A program made the translations under genes and the position numbers. A stretch of 64,000 nucleotides of DNA from Flavobacteriaceae bacterium. Lineage in GTDB: Bacteria; Bacteroidota; Bacteroidia; Flavobacteriales; Flavobacteriaceae. Location: NCBI GenBank assembly GCA_018699935.1, contig JABISF010000079.1, positions 62,001 to 126,000 on the forward strand, written 5' to 3'. Below the pieces are notes generated by a model. That model was not told where the DNA came from and made no database searches. It was given only the letters and a program-made list of their open reading frames with translations. How positions within the stretch are numbered: the stretch's first letter is position 1; every line of letters begins with the position of its first letter. Positions 43,890 through 50,677 of this stretch are shown piece by piece.

Positions 43890-43916
43890 TTTGATCTAAT
43901 AAATCCTTTAATTTTG
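43890..43916 (+). promoter_or_regulatory. Promoter of the DM13 lipoprotein-barrel pair
   Basis: A perfect -7 TAATTTTG (43909-43916) is preceded by TTTG at 43890-43893, with a spacer of 15 bases, somewhat short of the usual 17-23. The ATG at 43938 lies 21 bases beyond. This indicates a transcription unit separate from hemB and rules out an upstream in-frame start at 43914. Confidence 0.5.
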
Positions 43917-43937
43917 TCAAGACCTCAAATCCTTGAC

Positions 43938-44978
43938 ATGAAATCTTTCAGGTTTTTAAATTTCTTATTTATCATTAGTTTCCTTTCTTGCGGAGGGGTT
44001 GATTTAATCGATGATTATGTACCTCCTTCTCTCAGAATCACCACCCCCTTCACAGAATTAACCCTTGGCAATTCGTATACTTTTACTGCCCGCTATTTTG
44101 ACAATGTTGGAGATGCCGTAGAAAACGCTTCGATCCAATGGGAAAGCTCCCATCCGGAGCTTTTACAAATTGATGCACAAGGAAATGCAACCCCCTTAAA
44201 GGTGGGAACAGTACAAATCGTCGCTACCCTCACTACCCCCGACGGAATTGTTTTAACCGATGAAATTAATTTATCCATTCAAAGTAATGTAGTGTTAGAA
44301 CCTACACCCCCTGAGACCCCCGTGGAAGAGGAGATGGAAATGCCAGTGGAGGAAGAAATGCCCATGGAAAACACGGTCACACCCACCCTCAGCATTACCA
44401 ATGCTATTTCTCAAATTACGGCCGCTACCAGTTATCAATTCGAAGTTGCCTACACCGATGAAATGGGAAATCCTGCCACGCCTCCCCAAGTGACCTGGAC
44501 AAGTTCAAACAACGACATTATCGAAGTGGATGCCAATGGCACGATTCAAGCAATCATGTCGGGAACCGTAACCCTTACGGTTTCAATTCAAATTTCGAGC
44601 ACTTTGATACAAGCGCACAACCAAATTCTTGTCAACGCTCCCGTCATGGAAATGATCACTTCCTTTTCTGGTAAAGTTGTTTCAAAAAGTAGTTATACAC
44701 TACAAGGGGGCTTTACGCTTGCCGAAAGTGAAAATGGATTAATCCTCTCCTTGGATGAAGACTACAAAGCCTCTACAGCACTTCCGGGTCTGTATGTTTA
44801 TTTGTCCAACAATGCCAACACCACTGCAGGAGCTTATGAAATTGGAAAAGTTACCGTTTTTGCAGGGGCACATTCCTACCAACTTCCCAACAGCATTGAA
44901 CTGATGGACTACCAATATATTTTATACTGGTGTAAGCCCTTCAATGTAAAAGTGGGAGAAGCCAAAATCTACGACTGA
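43938..44978 (+). CDS. Lipoprotein with two bacterial Ig-like domains and a C-terminal DM13 domain
   Basis: The protein has 346 residues and a lipoprotein signal (MKSFRFLNFLFIISFLSC, Cys18). Two Big_2-like Ig domains follow, at about residues 25-115 and 146-235, each with the pattern of a W-x-S strand, a GNATP/NGTIQ turn and a closing strand. They are joined by an acidic linker of repeated PVEEEM units. The C-terminal 105 residues match the DM13 domain: GLYVYLSNNA, IGKVTVFAGAHSYQLP and LYWCKPFNVKVGEAKI with the single conserved Cys332. DM13 is a small beta domain proposed to take part in redox or electron transfer at cell surfaces. The stop overlaps the next ATG (TGATG), so it is coupled to a barrel gene. 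Confidence 0.75.
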   Translation: MKSFRFLNFLFIISFLSCGGVDLIDDYVPPSLRITTPFTELTLGNSYTFTARYFDNVGDAVENASIQWESSHPELLQIDAQGNATPLKVGTVQIVATLTTPDGIVLTDEINLSIQSNVVLEPTPPETPVEEEMEMPVEEEMPMENTVTPTLSITNAISQITAATSYQFEVAYTDEMGNPATPPQVTWTSSNNDIIEVDANGTIQAIMSGTVTLTVSIQISSTLIQAHNQILVNAPVMEMITSFSGKVVSKSSYTLQGGFTLAESENGLILSLDEDYKASTALPGLYVYLSNNANTTAGAYEIGKVTVFAGAHSYQLPNSIELMDYQYILYWCKPFNVKVGEAKIYD

Positions 44979-45829
44979 TGAAATATTATTTACTCCCGCT
45001 ATTCCTACTCATCAACTTTGTGTCCCACGCCCAATGGATCAAAGAAAAAGGAGATGCCTACCTAAAATTGGGGGGCTGGTCGCTTTTGGCCAATGAGCAT
45101 TTCACGGATGAAGGAAAGCTTGATCCCAATGCCACTCGCGGACTCTTCATCAGCAGTCTATACGGTCAAATCGGGCTGAGTAAAAAAATCAATTTGATTG
45201 CTTATGTTCCTTTTTTTGTTAAAAATTATCAATTTGCGCAAGTTTCAAAAACCAACAATAAAGAATATGAACCTCGTCAAGTGTACAATGGACTGGGCGA
45301 TATCAATTTGGGGATTGAATATGGTTTTGGCCAACTAAAAAACTGGCATTTTTCGGGCACTTTGACCCTAGGAATACCTTCGGGTGCCGATGCCGCCGGC
45401 ATTGATGGCAGCTACCAAACGGGCGATGGTGAATTCAATCAGTTACTGCAAGGGAATGTAGGGAAAAGTTTTTCTTTGGGTGGTCAAGGGTTTTATTTTA
45501 AATCGTATTTGGGCTATAACAATCGCACGGAAGGGTTTTCGGATGAGCTTCATAGTTATGCCGAAACCGGAACGCAATTTCTGAAATCAAAACTCCTATT
45601 GCTCACCCGTATGCATTGGATCAAACCCTTATACAACGGCACGCTAGATGCGTCCAATGCCAATGGAGCCATTTTTGCCAATAATATTGAAAGCTTGGTT
45701 TTGGGTGGAGAAATAGCGGTGCTTTTAAGTTCTAAATGGGGAATTTCACTCGGAGCCAGCACTCCCCTGTACGGAAAAGTTATCTACCGCGCTTCGAGTT
45801 TCTCAGGAGGTGTGTTTTTGAATTTATAA
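44978..45829 (+). CDS. Outer-membrane beta-barrel protein coupled to the DM13 lipoprotein
   Basis: The 283-residue protein has a signal peptide (MKYYLLPLFLLINFVSHAQ). The rest alternates hydrophobic and polar residues as in outer-membrane strands (INLIAYVPFFVKNY, GLGDINLGIEYGFG, HFSGTLTLGIPSGADA), ending in SFSGGVFLNL. The GLGD-I-x-L-G motif is shared with the MetA-pathway-of-phenol-degradation type transporter-like barrels. It is translationally coupled to the DM13 lipoprotein upstream, so the two very likely work together at the outer membrane. No substrate can be inferred. Its stop is 13 bases from the convergent hydroxyproline operon. Confidence 0.72.
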   Translation: MKYYLLPLFLLINFVSHAQWIKEKGDAYLKLGGWSLLANEHFTDEGKLDPNATRGLFISSLYGQIGLSKKINLIAYVPFFVKNYQFAQVSKTNNKEYEPRQVYNGLGDINLGIEYGFGQLKNWHFSGTLTLGIPSGADAAGIDGSYQTGDGEFNQLLQGNVGKSFSLGGQGFYFKSYLGYNNRTEGFSDELHSYAETGTQFLKSKLLLLTRMHWIKPLYNGTLDASNANGAIFANNIESLVLGGEIAVLLSSKWGISLGASTPLYGKVIYRASSFSGGVFLNL

Positions 45830-45844
45830 AAAATGCTTTCACCT

Positions 45845-47101
45845 TTAATTCCCGTAACCCCTTTCCGGTGCAAAGGGCTTTAAATCAATGGACGGAGATT
45901 GCCCCGAAATCAACTCTGTGACTAGTTTTCCCGTGGCGGGTCCCAAGCTCCATCCCATCATGGCATGACCGGTTGCCAGCACCAAATTTATTACCGCCGA
46001 ATGTCTCCCAATAAAAGGTAAGCCATCGGGAGAGAGCGGTCGAAGACCACATTGAACAGCCTCCATGGCTTTTTTGGAAACTTCAATTTGCGGATAATAC
46101 TGCTGTGCAGCTTTTGCGATAGCTGCTACACGTTGAGGCAAAATACGATGGTTTATTCCTGAAATTTCCATGGTTCCAGCAAACCGAGTAAACCCCTGCA
46201 TGGGCGTCACGGCAACTTTCGCCTCGAGTAAAATGGAAGGAAGTGCAATGCCGGTTTCCGTTTCTACATTCAGCCGATAGCCTTTCCCTGCTTGAATTGA
46301 GAGACGAATCCCCAAAGGCTTTAAAAGTTTTTCCGACCAAGCACCTGTTGCAAGCACAACTTCATCCGCCGCAATAGTTCCTTTATTGGTCACTACGGCA
46401 GCAATTTGTTTGTTTGTTTTTTGAAAACCCGTCACTTCAGTTTCCAACATAAAGGCTACCCCTTGATTTTGAAGCTCCGTATGAAGATTTTTCATAAAAA
46501 TTTCCGGCGTACTGTGCGCATCACTTTCATACCAATAGGCTCCTGCAATGTTCATCGGAGCCTTGGGCTGCATCGCCGAAACCGCCGCTAGGTCGAGCTG
46601 TTTTACGGTCAATCCCAGACCTCTTGCCCAAGCCACAACTTCCGCTTCTTCCTTTTCTGCATGTGTTGTTTGATAGGCCATCAACAAGCCTTTGGTTTCC
46701 AAATGAAAATCCAAGGTCCCCGATTGCTGCATTTCCAAATACAATTGTTTGCTGAACAAATTGATCTCCAAAATGGCTTGCATGGATCGTTGAACATGTT
46801 CGGGCGTGCAGGATTTCATGAATTTCAATCCCCACGAAATTAAATCCTTGTCCCATCGCGGTTTCATATAAAAAGGGCTGGAGGCATTAAACATCCATCG
46901 GAAACCCTTAGCAACCATCCCCGGAGCAGCCATGGGCACGATATGGCTTGGGGTTAGGTAACCCGCATTGACATGGGAAGCACCACCGTCCATCGCCCCT
47001 TGATCGACCACCACGACCTGATGTCCTTCTTTTTGGAGATAATAGGCTGTGGACAAACCCACGATACCTCCTCCCAACACAATGACTTTTTTTTGTGTCA
47101 T
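45845..47101 (-). CDS. FAD-dependent D-hydroxyproline dehydrogenase (DAO family)
   Basis: The 418-residue flavoprotein has the dinucleotide-binding VLGGGIVGLSTAYYL at residues 6-20, an Asp for the FAD ribose (VVVDQG), and the C-terminal GHAMMGWSLGPATGKLV of D-amino-acid dehydrogenases. In the hydroxyproline pathway it oxidises cis-4-hydroxy-D-proline to pyrroline-4-hydroxy-2-carboxylate. The function is assigned from its place as the last gene of a four-gene operon with an epimerase, a DHDPS-like deaminase and an aldehyde dehydrogenase. Outside this context it could be called a general D-amino-acid dehydrogenase. Two bases separate it from the epimerase gene. Confidence 0.85.
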   Translation of the reverse strand: MTQKKVIVLGGGIVGLSTAYYLQKEGHQVVVVDQGAMDGGASHVNAGYLTPSHIVPMAAPGMVAKGFRWMFNASSPFYMKPRWDKDLISWGLKFMKSCTPEHVQRSMQAILEINLFSKQLYLEMQQSGTLDFHLETKGLLMAYQTTHAEKEEAEVVAWARGLGLTVKQLDLAAVSAMQPKAPMNIAGAYWYESDAHSTPEIFMKNLHTELQNQGVAFMLETEVTGFQKTNKQIAAVVTNKGTIAADEVVLATGAWSEKLLKPLGIRLSIQAGKGYRLNVETETGIALPSILLEAKVAVTPMQGFTRFAGTMEISGINHRILPQRVAAIAKAAQQYYPQIEVSKKAMEAVQCGLRPLSPDGLPFIGRHSAVINLVLATGHAMMGWSLGPATGKLVTELISGQSPSIDLKPFAPERGYGN

Positions 47102-47103
47102 CG

Positions 47104-48114
47104 CTAGAGTACTTGAAAACCTTTTACATAGGAATCGGCAGGGTCTAAAATCAATTGATTGTAGCCAATAATCCGCGCACTGCCTTCAATGCTAGGAATC
47201 ATCCCTAAAATATTTCCCACTTGCTCAGCTGCTTCTACCCTTCCTTTAAAAATGGAACCAATAATACTTTCGTGTACAAAAGTATCTCCCACCTTCAGTT
47301 TTCCTTTGGCAAACCATTGTGCCATACGCGCAGAAGTGCCTGTTCCGCAGGGCGATCGATCAATCGCCTTATCTCCATAAAACACAGCATTACTGGCAGT
47401 GCTGCCCGCTTGGGTGGGTTCACCCGCCCATAATACATGGCTACAGCCATTTATTTTTTTATCCAAGGGATGATGAAACGAATGTTGTTCATTTATTTTT
47501 TTTCGCAGTTCCCGGCTCCACTCGATCAGTTGCCCCGCAGTATAATGGGCGATCCCTTTAAAATTTTTCTGAATGTCCACAATCGCATAAAAATTTCCTC
47601 CATAAGACACATCCACAATCAATTTTCCCAAGCCAGAGCAATCCACCTCAAGCTCTGAAGCGGCAAGAAAAGCAGGCACATTGGTGAATTGAATCGAACT
47701 TACTTTTTCTTCCTCTTTTTGATAGGAAGCAATCACCAAACCCGCCGGGGTTTCTACCTTTATACGTCCTGCATCCTTGGGTTGAATCAAATTTTCTTCC
47801 AAAAGGATGGTCAACGTGCCAATCAGCCCGTGTCCGCACATGGGTAAACAACCACTGGTCTCAATAAATAAAACGGCAACATCGTTTTCGGCCGCATGAG
47901 GTTCATAGAAAAAGCTTCCGCTCATCATATCGTGTCCTCGAGGTTCAAACATCAAACCCGTTCGAATCCAATCGTAATGTTCTAAAAAATAAAGGCGTTT
48001 TTCTCCCATCGAATTACCCTTCAATTGGGGTGCGGGACTTTTGACCAAACGAACGGGATTTCCAGCCGTATAGGCATCTACGCAATCAAAAATGAGTCGT
48101 TCTTTGGGATTCAT
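47104..48114 (-). CDS. 4-Hydroxyproline 2-epimerase (proline racemase family)
   Basis: The 336-residue protein is a proline racemase homologue with both catalytic cysteines: Cys93 in PMCGHGLIG and Cys256 in SPCGTGTSARMA. Two cysteines indicate an epimerase; trans-3-hydroxyproline dehydratases have Thr or Ser at one of these places. It should convert trans-4-hydroxy-L-proline into cis-4-hydroxy-D-proline in the cytoplasm. Its start overlaps the end of the aldehyde dehydrogenase gene by 4 bases (ATGA). Confidence 0.9.
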   Translation of the reverse strand: MNPKERLIFDCVDAYTAGNPVRLVKSPAPQLKGNSMGEKRLYFLEHYDWIRTGLMFEPRGHDMMSGSFFYEPHAAENDVAVLFIETSGCLPMCGHGLIGTLTILLEENLIQPKDAGRIKVETPAGLVIASYQKEEEKVSSIQFTNVPAFLAASELEVDCSGLGKLIVDVSYGGNFYAIVDIQKNFKGIAHYTAGQLIEWSRELRKKINEQHSFHHPLDKKINGCSHVLWAGEPTQAGSTASNAVFYGDKAIDRSPCGTGTSARMAQWFAKGKLKVGDTFVHESIIGSIFKGRVEAAEQVGNILGMIPSIEGSARIIGYNQLILDPADSYVKGFQVL

Positions 48115-49652
48115 ACCATCGCCTTAGTTAGGACACCGTTCAAATGTCTATGGAGTTGTAAAGGATTTTCATTTTGCAGTGCTGCAGGCAAATATTCATT
48201 GGGACAATCTTGGTAGGCTACAGGACGCAACCATCTGTAGATAGCATCCACACCCACGGAACTGAAACGGCTATCGGTCGTGGCAGGATAGGGCCCTCCA
48301 TGCTGCATGGCCTGAGTTACTGCAACACCCGTGGGGACGCCTTCGAAAAGCAGTCTTCCCACTTTTGCTTGCAGTATGGGAAGCAATGCCTGAAGCTGTT
48401 GCTGATCCTCCATATCTCCTAAAAGCGTCGCCGTCAGTTGACCGGAAAGGCTTTCCGCAACTGCCAACTGTTCCTTGGCGTTTTTGCAATGCACCACTAA
48501 ACTAAACGGTCCAAAGACCTCCTCTGCCAATGTGGGATGCGCTAAAAAATACGAAGCCTCAACGCTCCCCAAACATGCACCACTTGCTGCTGATGGAGCT
48601 ATGGCAAGCTCCTTAAATTCCGTTTTTAGTTTCGAAATTTGGTGGGTATAGCTCGTTTCAATATTACTGTGAACCATCGGTCCTAGTTCCATCGTTTTTA
48701 TCTTTTCATCTAAAGCTACTCCCCAGCTACTGTTGGGGGCAGGATCGCAAATGACAATCAACCCGGGGTTGGTACAAAATTGACCTGTTCCCATGGTGAT
48801 AGATCCGGCTAAAAGTTCACTCAAACCATCATCCGATTTTAATCTGTTTTCCAAAATAAAAATGGGATTAACGCTTCCCATTTCCGCAAATACAGGAATG
48901 GGACATGCTCTTTGCTGCGCCAAGTCATAGAGCGCTTTCCCGCCAGCAAAACTTCCAGTAAATCCAACCGCTTTGACCAAAGGATGACATACCAATTGAC
49001 GCCCCACCGCATGAGATTGCCCCCCCAGGTGTGAAAATATTCCCAAAGGTAAATCACATTTTTTGAGGGCACGGTGTATGGCTTGCGCAACCCATTCACT
49101 GGTGCCTGCATGATACGGATGGGCTTTTACAATAACGGGACAGCCCGCTGCAAGAGCAGAAATAGTATCTCCACCCGCTGTAGAGAACGCCAATGGAAAA
49201 TTACTCGCTCCAAAAACCACCACAGGTCCTATCGGGAAAAGCATTTTTCTTAAATCGGGGCCTTGAGTGTGCAGCGTTGCTTGAACAAAAGACCCCTCCT
49301 TTAGCAATTCAATAAATCGTTCGATCTGATCTAAAGTCCGTTGCAATTCTCCCTTGGCTCTCCCCTCCGGAAGTGCTGATTCAGCCATATAGATTTCCAA
49401 AATTTCAGAGGTATGCGCTTGAATTTCTTCTTGTATGGTTTTTAAAAATTGAGCCCGTTCTGAAAAACTTGTTCCCGCAAAATGGGCTGCCACGGCAGCA
49501 GCCTCCACAACGGCAGCATCAATTTGAGCTTCCGTAGCTTCTTCAAAAGCAGTAGGGAGCGGCGTTACAGTTTTTGGATTAAATGTTTTGAATTGATGTG
49601 CTGAAGAAGTCGTTTGCCAATTTCCAGCCACTAAATTTTTTCCTGTTATCAT
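48111..49652 (-). CDS. 2-Oxoglutarate semialdehyde dehydrogenase
   Basis: The 513-residue aldehyde dehydrogenase has Asn151 (VFGASNFPLAF), Lys176, Glu257 (AEMGSVNPIF) and the nucleophile Cys293 (GTGQFCTNPG). The GSVNP form and overall sequence match the NADP-type 2-oxoglutarate semialdehyde dehydrogenases. It performs the last step of hydroxyproline breakdown, giving 2-oxoglutarate. The gene overlaps both neighbours by 4 bases. The same enzyme type is also used in arabinonate or glucarate breakdown, but the neighbours point to hydroxyproline. Confidence 0.9.
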   Translation of the reverse strand: MITGKNLVAGNWQTTSSAHQFKTFNPKTVTPLPTAFEEATEAQIDAAVVEAAAVAAHFAGTSFSERAQFLKTIQEEIQAHTSEILEIYMAESALPEGRAKGELQRTLDQIERFIELLKEGSFVQATLHTQGPDLRKMLFPIGPVVVFGASNFPLAFSTAGGDTISALAAGCPVIVKAHPYHAGTSEWVAQAIHRALKKCDLPLGIFSHLGGQSHAVGRQLVCHPLVKAVGFTGSFAGGKALYDLAQQRACPIPVFAEMGSVNPIFILENRLKSDDGLSELLAGSITMGTGQFCTNPGLIVICDPAPNSSWGVALDEKIKTMELGPMVHSNIETSYTHQISKLKTEFKELAIAPSAASGACLGSVEASYFLAHPTLAEEVFGPFSLVVHCKNAKEQLAVAESLSGQLTATLLGDMEDQQQLQALLPILQAKVGRLLFEGVPTGVAVTQAMQHGGPYPATTDSRFSSVGVDAIYRWLRPVAYQDCPNEYLPAALQNENPLQLHRHLNGVLTKAMV

Positions 49653-50578
49653 CGATAATTTTTATAGTCAAGTTTTTGAGGGCGCTGTGCCATGCCTTCT
49701 TTAATTATTTTTTCTACTTTTTTTAATGCCTCGCCGGAAAGTGGGAGTCGTGGTTTGCGTACATAACCCGTTCCTAAACCGGTGGCGACTTCACATAATT
49801 TGATGTTTTGTACCAATTGGGGGGAAATATCCAACTCCAAAAGAGGCAAAAACCAGCGGAATACGGCTCTTGCTTTTTCCCATTCCCCTGCTTTGCAATA
49901 GGTATAAATCGCTACGGTTTCCTCTGGAAAAGCATCTACTAAACCGGCCACCCAACCTTGGCCGCCCATCAACAGGCATTCCATAGCAATGGTGTCCACG
50001 CCACACAGGATTTTATACCGATCTCCAAAGCGATTGATCATTCGAGTAACATTGGTGACATCTCGGGTAGATTCTTTCACCGCTGTAATGTTTTTATATT
50101 TTGTCAAGGCCTCAAACATCTCCAAAGTCACTTCAATTTTATAATCCACCGGATTGTTGTAAATCATAATGGGCAAGGAGGTGGCTTGAGCCACTTCAGC
50201 AAAATAGGTAAGCGTTTCGGTATCAGTGGCATAGTAGCGCATGGGAGGGAGGAGCATCAACCCATCGGCTCCTTGTGCTTCTGCATTTTGAGCCGCTTGA
50301 ACTGCCTCCGAAGTTGCTTGAGCAGCAATGTTCATAATGACAGGGATTTTTCCTCCCACCACTTCAAGGGTTGTGGTCAATAATGTTTTTCTTTCCTCCT
50401 CCGAAAGCGTACTGGCTTCCCCTAAAGTTCCTCCCAAAATAATCCCATGTACTCCGGCATTGTATTGAGCCGTTAGATTTTTTTTAAAGGCATTGAGGTC
50501 TAAATTTCCTGCTGCGTCAAATTGGGTGGTTATAGCGGGCATCACACCTTCCCATTCAAATTGCAATTGATTTTTCAT
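49649..50578 (-). CDS. Pyrroline-4-hydroxy-2-carboxylate deaminase (DHDPS family)
   Basis: The 309-residue protein belongs to the DapA/NAL aldolase family, with Tyr140 (MIYNNPV) and Schiff-base Lys168 (ITAVKES). In a hydroxyproline operon such proteins deaminate and dehydrate pyrroline-4-hydroxy-2-carboxylate to 2-oxoglutarate semialdehyde. The ATG at 50578 (MKNQLQFEWEG) is chosen over a TTG two codons upstream. It is the first gene of the operon. True DapA is unlikely because no lysine-pathway gene is near. The 99 bases to the divergent ogt gene hold no promoter I can define. Confidence 0.87.
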   Translation of the reverse strand: MKNQLQFEWEGVMPAITTQFDAAGNLDLNAFKKNLTAQYNAGVHGIILGGTLGEASTLSEEERKTLLTTTLEVVGGKIPVIMNIAAQATSEAVQAAQNAEAQGADGLMLLPPMRYYATDTETLTYFAEVAQATSLPIMIYNNPVDYKIEVTLEMFEALTKYKNITAVKESTRDVTNVTRMINRFGDRYKILCGVDTIAMECLLMGGQGWVAGLVDAFPEETVAIYTYCKAGEWEKARAVFRWFLPLLELDISPQLVQNIKLCEVATGLGTGYVRKPRLPLSGEALKKVEKIIKEGMAQRPQKLDYKNYR

Positions 50579-50677
50579 AAACAAAACATTTAATAGGTTA
50601 AATTACTTAATTCGCCCAAAAGAAAGATAAATGTTTAACTTTACAAAACAGAGGCTATTAATTTTTTTGGTTTACTC

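Follow-up and report, generated by a model that had tools for sequence, protein, structure and literature searches.

A lipoprotein carrying a DM13 domain and a putative outer-membrane β-barrel are encoded by adjoining genes in a 64,000-nucleotide stretch of DNA from a Flavobacteriaceae bacterium (hereafter the window), which lies on contig 59 of a draft genome of 2.17 Mb. The pairing of these two proteins is real and phylum-wide. In many relatives the DM13 gene is preceded by a promoter-like motif that also lies upstream of methionine sulfoxide reductase genes, and this common motif is the new observation made here. We tentatively propose that the pair is one module, consisting of a redox-active DM13 head and a channel, which is stress-induced in many relatives. 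An earlier examination of the window sequence (the original prediction) had suggested a surface redox or ligand-capture device. The first of these gains indirect support from the motif of the relatives, which precedes msrA, msrB and other thiol-stress genes, and we infer a surface redox device made under oxidative stress, whose chemistry and exposure are putative.

The two genes share one base and stand in the order hemB, DM13 lipoprotein, barrel and a convergent amino-acid oxidase-like gene. The sequence confirms the open reading frames (ORFs), the start codon (ATG at 43938), the TGATG overlap, Cys332 and the lipobox FLSC, which contains Cys18; position 43890, where the original prediction began, is 48 bases upstream of this start codon. 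The features of the pair are as follows.

43938–44978, + strand: DM13 lipoprotein gene, 346 amino acids (sequence, Pfam, model)
43938–43988, + strand: lipoprotein signal peptide with lipobox FLSC and Cys18; mature end CGGVDLIDDY (sequence)
44034–44291, + strand: Ig-like domain 1 (Big_2), residues 33–118 (Pfam, model strands; boundaries approximate)
44292–44375, + strand: acidic linker rich in Pro, Glu and Met, about residues 119–146 (low model confidence in its middle part)
44376–44657, + strand: Ig-like domain 2 (Big_2), residues 147–240 (Pfam, model strands; boundaries approximate)
44658–44975, + strand: DM13 domain, residues 241–346, with the Cys332 codon at 44931–44933 (Pfam, model, alignments)
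44976–44980, + strand: TGATG stop–start overlap of the two genes (sequence)
44978–45829, + strand: 12-stranded outer-membrane barrel, COG4313/FapF-like, 283 amino acids (sequence, model, fold search)

The architecture originally predicted for the lipoprotein is borne out. A Pfam search gives a significant DM13 match (PF10517) at residues 253–344 (E 4e-7, 31.0 bits against a cut-off of 25), along with two Big_2 stretches (E 3.3e-8) that account for the two Ig-like domains, and no DOMON match. Neither window protein matches an NCBIfam model at E ≤ 0.001, and a genome-wide search finds this single DM13 (33.4 bits). The lipobox cysteine, Cys18, is at least 90% invariant in an alignment of 64 sequences. 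The acidic linker is also present, though it is the least conserved part: among eight genus members, including that of the window, its mean identity is 0.27, as against 0.48 for the Ig domains and 0.76 for DM13. The corresponding uncorrected ratios of non-synonymous to synonymous differences (pN/pS) are 0.76, about 0.5 and 0.23, which are rough values because synonymous sites are near saturation. By this sequence comparison, DM13 is the constrained part of the lipoprotein.

The export signal of Bacteroidota surface lipoproteins (LES) is described in the available text of PMC5080379 as K-(D/E)2, or polar then acidic residues, at positions +2 to +6. The mature end of the window protein has one acid in this interval, and those of relatives typically read C-I-G-E-D-I-I-D-D. 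Acidic residues at positions +2 to +11 come to 3.13 in 70 relatives versus 2.18 in 17 other lipoproteins.

Within the genus, DM13 is found in 8 of 36 congeners searched and a barrel match in 10. In each of the eight DM13 congeners the barrel gene comes next, its start sharing one base with the DM13 stop codon (TGATG or TAATG), and upstream there is a hemB-like gene. Barrel remnants alone persist between hemB and the oxidase gene in genomes G005 (with stops) and G020 (40 residues), while DM13 is interrupted by a stop in G003 and the barrel by a frame break in G034. The genus probably inherited the module from its ancestor and is now losing it, in part through decay.

Beyond the genus, DM13 occurs in 44 of 392 Bacteroidota genomes (the window's own genome counted), and the barrel profile matches 23. 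In 17 of 45 DM13 neighbourhoods (44 retrieved loci plus the window, itself one of the 17), the window-type barrel gene lies next to DM13 on the same strand, with loci L084, L090 and L098 scored as having no barrel because no DM13 ORF was called there. Two further partner families that we read as barrels account for 8 and 3 more of the 45. Separately, a barrel alignment scan of named genomes yielded 333 relatives, with genera including Tenacibaculum, Winogradskyella, Flagellimonas, Aquimarina, Polaribacter, Wenyingzhuangia, Mesonia and Flavobacterium; an ORF with DM13 lies directly upstream of the barrel in 75 of the best 80. These 80 were picked by barrel similarity and are nearly all from Flavobacteriaceae, which makes the 392-genome sample the fairer one; they also overlap with the genus set, since seven are congeners that were counted there too (L125–L130, L134), and two others (L144, L148) are genomes G368 and G146. 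Alignments were built from 63 of the 75 DM13 proteins (A4) and 60 of the 80 barrels (A5), each with the window protein added. The barrel is conserved beside DM13 lipoproteins in related genomes, and neither this survey nor the DM13 search therefore refutes the original prediction. The emphasis placed on the TGATG stop–start has to be narrowed, as it holds at 44976–44980 and in the congeners, whereas a one-base overlap occurs in only 8 of the 75 loci (6 of them congeners) and gaps of 1–30 bases in 56. DM13 ORFs come in short forms of about 140–160 amino acids and longer ones of about 230, 340 and 400, which suggests that they carry from none to three Ig repeats. No description of the lipoprotein–barrel pair turned up in the open-access PMC literature on DM13, as far as titles and the opening lines of abstracts go.

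For partner clusters c2 and c13, profile comparison does not establish kinship with the window barrel (E 0.025 each, with reversed controls of 0.34 and 0.20). Cluster c2, an unnamed family of about 295 amino acids that we read as an outer-membrane protein, is paired with short DM13 lipoproteins at L082, L086, L093, L102, L107, L108, L111 and L112; the single member scanned has no Pfam match.

The motif GTAA-N14–18-[CA]GAC lies upstream of the DM13 gene in 41 of the 75 loci (33 with CGAC), and in 39 of these loci it ends 20–40 bases ahead of the called start. In the same loci it occurs in 5 of 384 upstream regions of other genes (1 with CGAC), and base-shuffled sets contain a mean of 1.1 occurrences (0.3 with CGAC). 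This layout resembles promoters recognized by extracytoplasmic function (ECF) sigma factors, and control by such a factor seems plausible; a Flavobacterium psychrophilum ECF-type motif carries a CGT box, according to the available text of PMC9723704.

A stricter pattern, TGTAA-N-TCGAC[AC]AA, was scanned for in 11 genomes that have retained both genes (26 sites) and in 80 family genomes (86 sites). From the latter, 70 sites were examined and 16 were left out by eye, several of which resemble repeated coding sequence; 30 of 44 mirror-control sites were examined and 14 left out. Intergenic sites with an ORF start 12–45 bases downstream number 13 of 26 and 11 of 70, versus 1 of 30 for the mirror pattern, and six of those 13 are DM13 genes themselves. 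The 18 non-DM13 genes that follow an intergenic motif comprise six redox genes, three barrels, two DUF6503 lipoproteins, one RskA_C protein and six others (L298, L351, L352, L355, L366, L386). The redox genes encode MsrA (L282, L369), MsrB (L359), a thioredoxin/AhpC-TSA protein (L290), the bacilliredoxin BrxC (L295) and an AhpD-like CMD protein (L371).

Redox proteins make up 6 of these 18 motif genes compared with 4 of 275 other ORFs of the same loci (Fisher p 4e-6, which is only a guide since the class was named after the gene list had been seen), and all four control matches are msr genes downstream of motif sites (L308, L320, L389). Sites flagged as lying inside another ORF precede genes for MsrB (L320), OsmC (L277), YaaA (L272) and an unnamed ORF (L373). 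Overall, at 6 of 96 sites examined the strict motif has msrA or msrB as the next gene (L282, L308, L320, L359, L369, L389). Wenyingzhuangia gilva (L150, genome G457) has the motif before both its DM13 gene and an msrA gene. The best functional lead is a candidate oxidative or thiol-stress regulon in relatives.

Two other kinds of gene were seen after the motif. In Tenacibaculum it precedes a second, apparently single-gene barrel (L270:1554–2456, L271, L275); all three match the window-type barrel profile, and with PF13557 the L270 protein passes and that of L275 has no match. At L269:1559–2770 the gene encodes a lipoprotein with an RskA_C (anti-sigma-K C-terminal) domain.

The C-terminal cysteine of DM13, which had been called conserved, proves to be so in 75 of 75 and 41 of 41 domains (the window is among the 41; L104 and L114, which are DM13 of another type, and the wrongly clustered L109_2 do not enter the profile or the count), and it is invariant in alignments A4 and A6. 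It is the sole cysteine of the last 106 residues in 72 of the 75, and so these domains have no internal disulfide. The residue might serve as a free thiol, bind a metal or haem, or form a disulfide with another molecule.

A structural model of the lipoprotein, built with 64 sequences, has a predicted local distance difference test (pLDDT) score of 88 and a predicted template modelling (pTM) score of 0.52. Residues 28–237 match Ig structures, with LigA the best match (Z 12.2) and S-layer domains at Z of about 10. Residues 237–346 match Cu,Zn-superoxide dismutases (SODs), among them 7b4p (Z 9.7, 2.6 Å, 106 residues aligned), a score that is only moderately above those of unrelated models and may reflect a common arrangement. 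Other SOD matches (5cu9, 4n3t, 6fp6, 1eso) have Z of 8.8–9.2, including Candida SOD5 (9.2, two entries), chain P of a SOD1–chaperone complex (8.8) and Escherichia coli SodC (8.8), and the SODs overall span 102–106 residues. A Big_2–CBM56 structure, 7r3t, also spans residues 28–346 (Z 11.7, root mean square deviation 9.3) and Ig structures fill most rows of the result; together with the middling Z, this makes the fold assignment of DM13 tentative.

The DM13 part of the model has eight strands, of which strand 7 (327–332) ends with Cys332 and strand 4 (285–290) reads LYVYLS. In SOD1, the copper ligand His120 stands at the end of strand 7, and His46 and His48 lie in strand 4. Judged from strand order rather than coordinates, the place of Cys332 may correspond to that of a SOD copper ligand.

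The barrel partner that had been predicted is likewise supported. Its model (61 sequences) has 12 long strands, with pLDDT 85 and pTM 0.80; residues 11–18, a region checked for an N-terminal segment folded into the barrel, have pLDDT below 50. The best solved matches are FapF (5o65; Z 22.2, 2.5 Å over 229 residues) and the COG4313 channel Pput2725 (4rl8; Z 22.1, 3.1 Å over 240), and the barrel sequence profile also picks FapF weakly (E 0.0023). The window barrel matches no Pfam family at E ≤ 1, PF13557 included; among three barrel relatives scanned against PF13557, two score 24.4 and 22.2 bits against a cut-off of 22 and the third has no match. On the model, the partner is predicted to be a narrow, 12-stranded channel of the COG4313/FapF fold. 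According to the available text of the respective papers, a role in the uptake of hydrophobic molecules is proposed for COG4313 channels (PMC4493636), and FapF exports amyloid subunits (PMC5557850).

In the mechanism that we propose, the outer-membrane lipoprotein would hold DM13 on an Ig stalk beside, and perhaps in contact with, the narrow 12-stranded channel. DM13, pictured as a Greek-key barrel like that of Cu,Zn-SOD with one invariant cysteine, would be the redox-active head and would work through a free thiol or a thiol–metal site, and the channel may pass a small hydrophobic or oxidised molecule on which DM13 acts. In many relatives the pair would be co-produced with methionine sulfoxide reductases and thiol-repair proteins, with oxidative or thiol stress of the envelope as the likely trigger. 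A bolder version, which we consider doubtful, holds that DM13 is a SOD-fold domain whose copper site has been rebuilt around the single cysteine, and that the pair is a surface, channel-coupled and inducible defence against reactive chlorine or thiol stress that acts alongside MsrA and MsrB.

Several observations weigh against this reading, beyond the modest Z of the SOD match and the after-the-fact definition of the redox class. The GTAA-N-[CA]GAC motif is found neither before the window gene nor in any of the six congener loci among the 75, and the stricter pattern has zero matches in the window's genome; regulation must therefore differ there, and the stress link holds for relatives only. 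The motif strings are not enriched over mirror sites (86 versus 105 in the 80 genomes, 26 versus 44 in the 11). Only the position before genes sets the motif apart, and here the mirror pattern is an imperfect control, as it may favour coding sequence. Six of the 18 intergenic non-DM13 motif genes have no redox link. The pairing, too, has gaps: 28 of 36 congeners give no DM13 match, many of these genomes being incomplete, such that absence is not always loss. Five of the 80 barrels lack an intact adjacent DM13 ORF (broken by a stop in L129; no DM13 found in L182, L183, L186 and L188). A lipobox-like cysteine is missing from 5 of the 75 called DM13 ORFs, and in two of these (L143, L162) the lipoprotein is split into two ORFs. 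With regard to the fold, no SOD metal ligand is conserved, as no histidine reaches 90% in the 25 sequences of alignment A6, where the invariant positions are G, G and C alone. A profile comparison of DM13 with SOD gives an hhalign E of 0.028 over 14 columns (reversed, 0.62) versus 3.9e-7 for CHRD with SOD as positive control, and it gives no sign of a sequence link of DM13 to either SOD or CHRD. Searches by sequence for a solved DM13 homologue found none, apart from one match at chance level (E 1).

Other functions for the pair can be weighed against the same data. One is that the two proteins act as a sensor rather than an effector, informing a regulator of the condition of the outer membrane much as SaeP of Staphylococcus aureus modulates the kinase SaeS. 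SaeP is a DM13 lipoprotein (PMC5020093, available text), and with SaeQ it induces SaeS phosphatase activity (PMC5083920, available text). Genes for a response regulator and a histidine kinase follow DM13 and the barrel in G412, G103 and G211 (L116, L117, L118), which is possibly a Gram-negative parallel to SaePQRS. Furthermore, genes with sigma-70 regions, assigned to cluster c17 (G311, G040, G365), make up 3 of the 88 neighbour proteins that were aligned (out of 95, seven being left out), and in G311 cluster c17 is directly upstream of DM13. However, no regulator gene adjoins the window pair, and in relatives the stress motif precedes the pair itself, which would be expected of an output; we therefore regard a sensor as unlikely. 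It is similarly hard to favour a channel for hydrophobic or amphipathic nutrients in which the DM13/Ig lipoprotein would serve in ligand binding or pore gating and DM13 would have no redox role. The proposed uptake function of COG4313 proteins and the fold match of the barrel (Z 22) speak for such a channel, whereas the motif is held in common with stress genes and no catabolic family is prominent among the 88 neighbour proteins (first 25 of 74 families).

The Ig part, with its likeness to LigA and S-layer domains, would also suit an adhesin or an element of envelope structure of the kind in which Ig domains occur in LigA, intimin and S-layer proteins, with the barrel a mere anchor. This is improbable given that the Ig part varies in sequence and in length (ORFs of about 230, 340 and 400 amino acids), whereas DM13 is constrained. 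Far less probable still is a haem-related device, suggested by the adjoining hem gene cluster. The adjacency that drew attention to the haem genes is recovered in part: of 80 loci, 40 have hemB no more than 4 kb away, and in 25 it is the next gene upstream in the same orientation. However, flanks of up to 4 kb hold no hemB in the other 40, which led us to reject haem partnership as the principal explanation. Moreover, the pair stands away from hemB in Tenacibaculum, Aquimarina and Mesonia, and phylum-wide DM13 neighbourhoods contain no recurring hemB-like cluster. The link is therefore weak, and the haem genes look like shared gene order in part of the family rather than a partner. A haem function does fit G333, where COX15 and SCO1 genes adjoin the pair: at this locus (L120), COX15–CtaA, SCO1/SenC, DUF420, barrel and DM13 genes form one run, a setting of copper as well as haem. 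Other DM13 neighbours in the phylum include YHS, DoxX, YceI, TANGO2, SelR/MsrB and SCO1 genes. Many of these other settings are redox or stress related, in counts that are small and have no background rate.

In the window genome itself, two features precede the lipoprotein gene.

43909–43916, + strand: TAATTTTG, which fits the flavobacterial sigma-A −7 box TAnnTTTG (sequence; consensus from the available text of PMC9723704)
43916–43937, + strand: palindrome GTCAAG-N10-CTTGAC, abutting the start codon (sequence)

The TAnnTTTG box is fitted exactly in 3 of 8 congeners (G034, G025, G007). No convincing upstream half of a sigma-A promoter was seen by eye before TAATTTTG, so that the promoter of its own once assigned to the pair is plausible but not proven. 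The palindrome may be an operator or a 5′ hairpin. Its arms are exact in G018 and G034 and changed together in G007; two other congeners need G–U pairs or a mismatch, and it is absent in three. It occurs as a single exact copy in its genome, and was rejected as a regulon marker since its five genomic places at ≤1 mismatch equal the control count.

Downstream of the pair, at 45845–50584 on the − strand, genes for a D-amino-acid-dehydrogenase-like protein, a 4-hydroxyproline epimerase, an aldehyde dehydrogenase and a DapA-like protein stand in a row that is likely to be a trans-4-hydroxyproline breakdown cluster; among the matches listed, only the epimerase is above its NCBIfam cut-off.

DM13 occurs in animals and bacteria, and its label as an electron-transfer domain rests on prediction; a redox or electron-transfer role is predicted in the available text of PMC4140639. 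With a conserved partner in bacteria, a candidate regulon for stress and a hypothesis on the fold, this label becomes testable. Among animal proteins, insect Knickkopf is comparable in its DM13 (PF10517), as the window domain matches this family above the cut-off and has the conserved C-terminal cysteine; the protein described here differs in being a bacterial lipoprotein with an Ig stalk, a barrel partner and no DOMON match. SaeP is alike as a bacterial lipoprotein carrying DM13, a likeness by description and not by sequence, and differs in having 146 residues and the partners SaeQ and SaeS (available text of PMC5083920). With Cu,Zn-SOD (PF00080), the DM13 model has in common its eight strands (Z 9.7 over 106 residues), whereas DM13 lacks conserved histidine ligands, is about 40 residues shorter than the matched SODs, ends strand 7 with a cysteine and has no sequence-profile link. 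Finally, the barrel resembles Pput2725 of COG4313 and FapF (Phenol_MetA_deg-like, PF13557) in its 12 strands (Z about 22) and in the G-D-x-x-L-G and P-S/T-G motifs common to both, and differs from them in having no PF13557 match at E ≤ 1 and in being paired with a lipoprotein.

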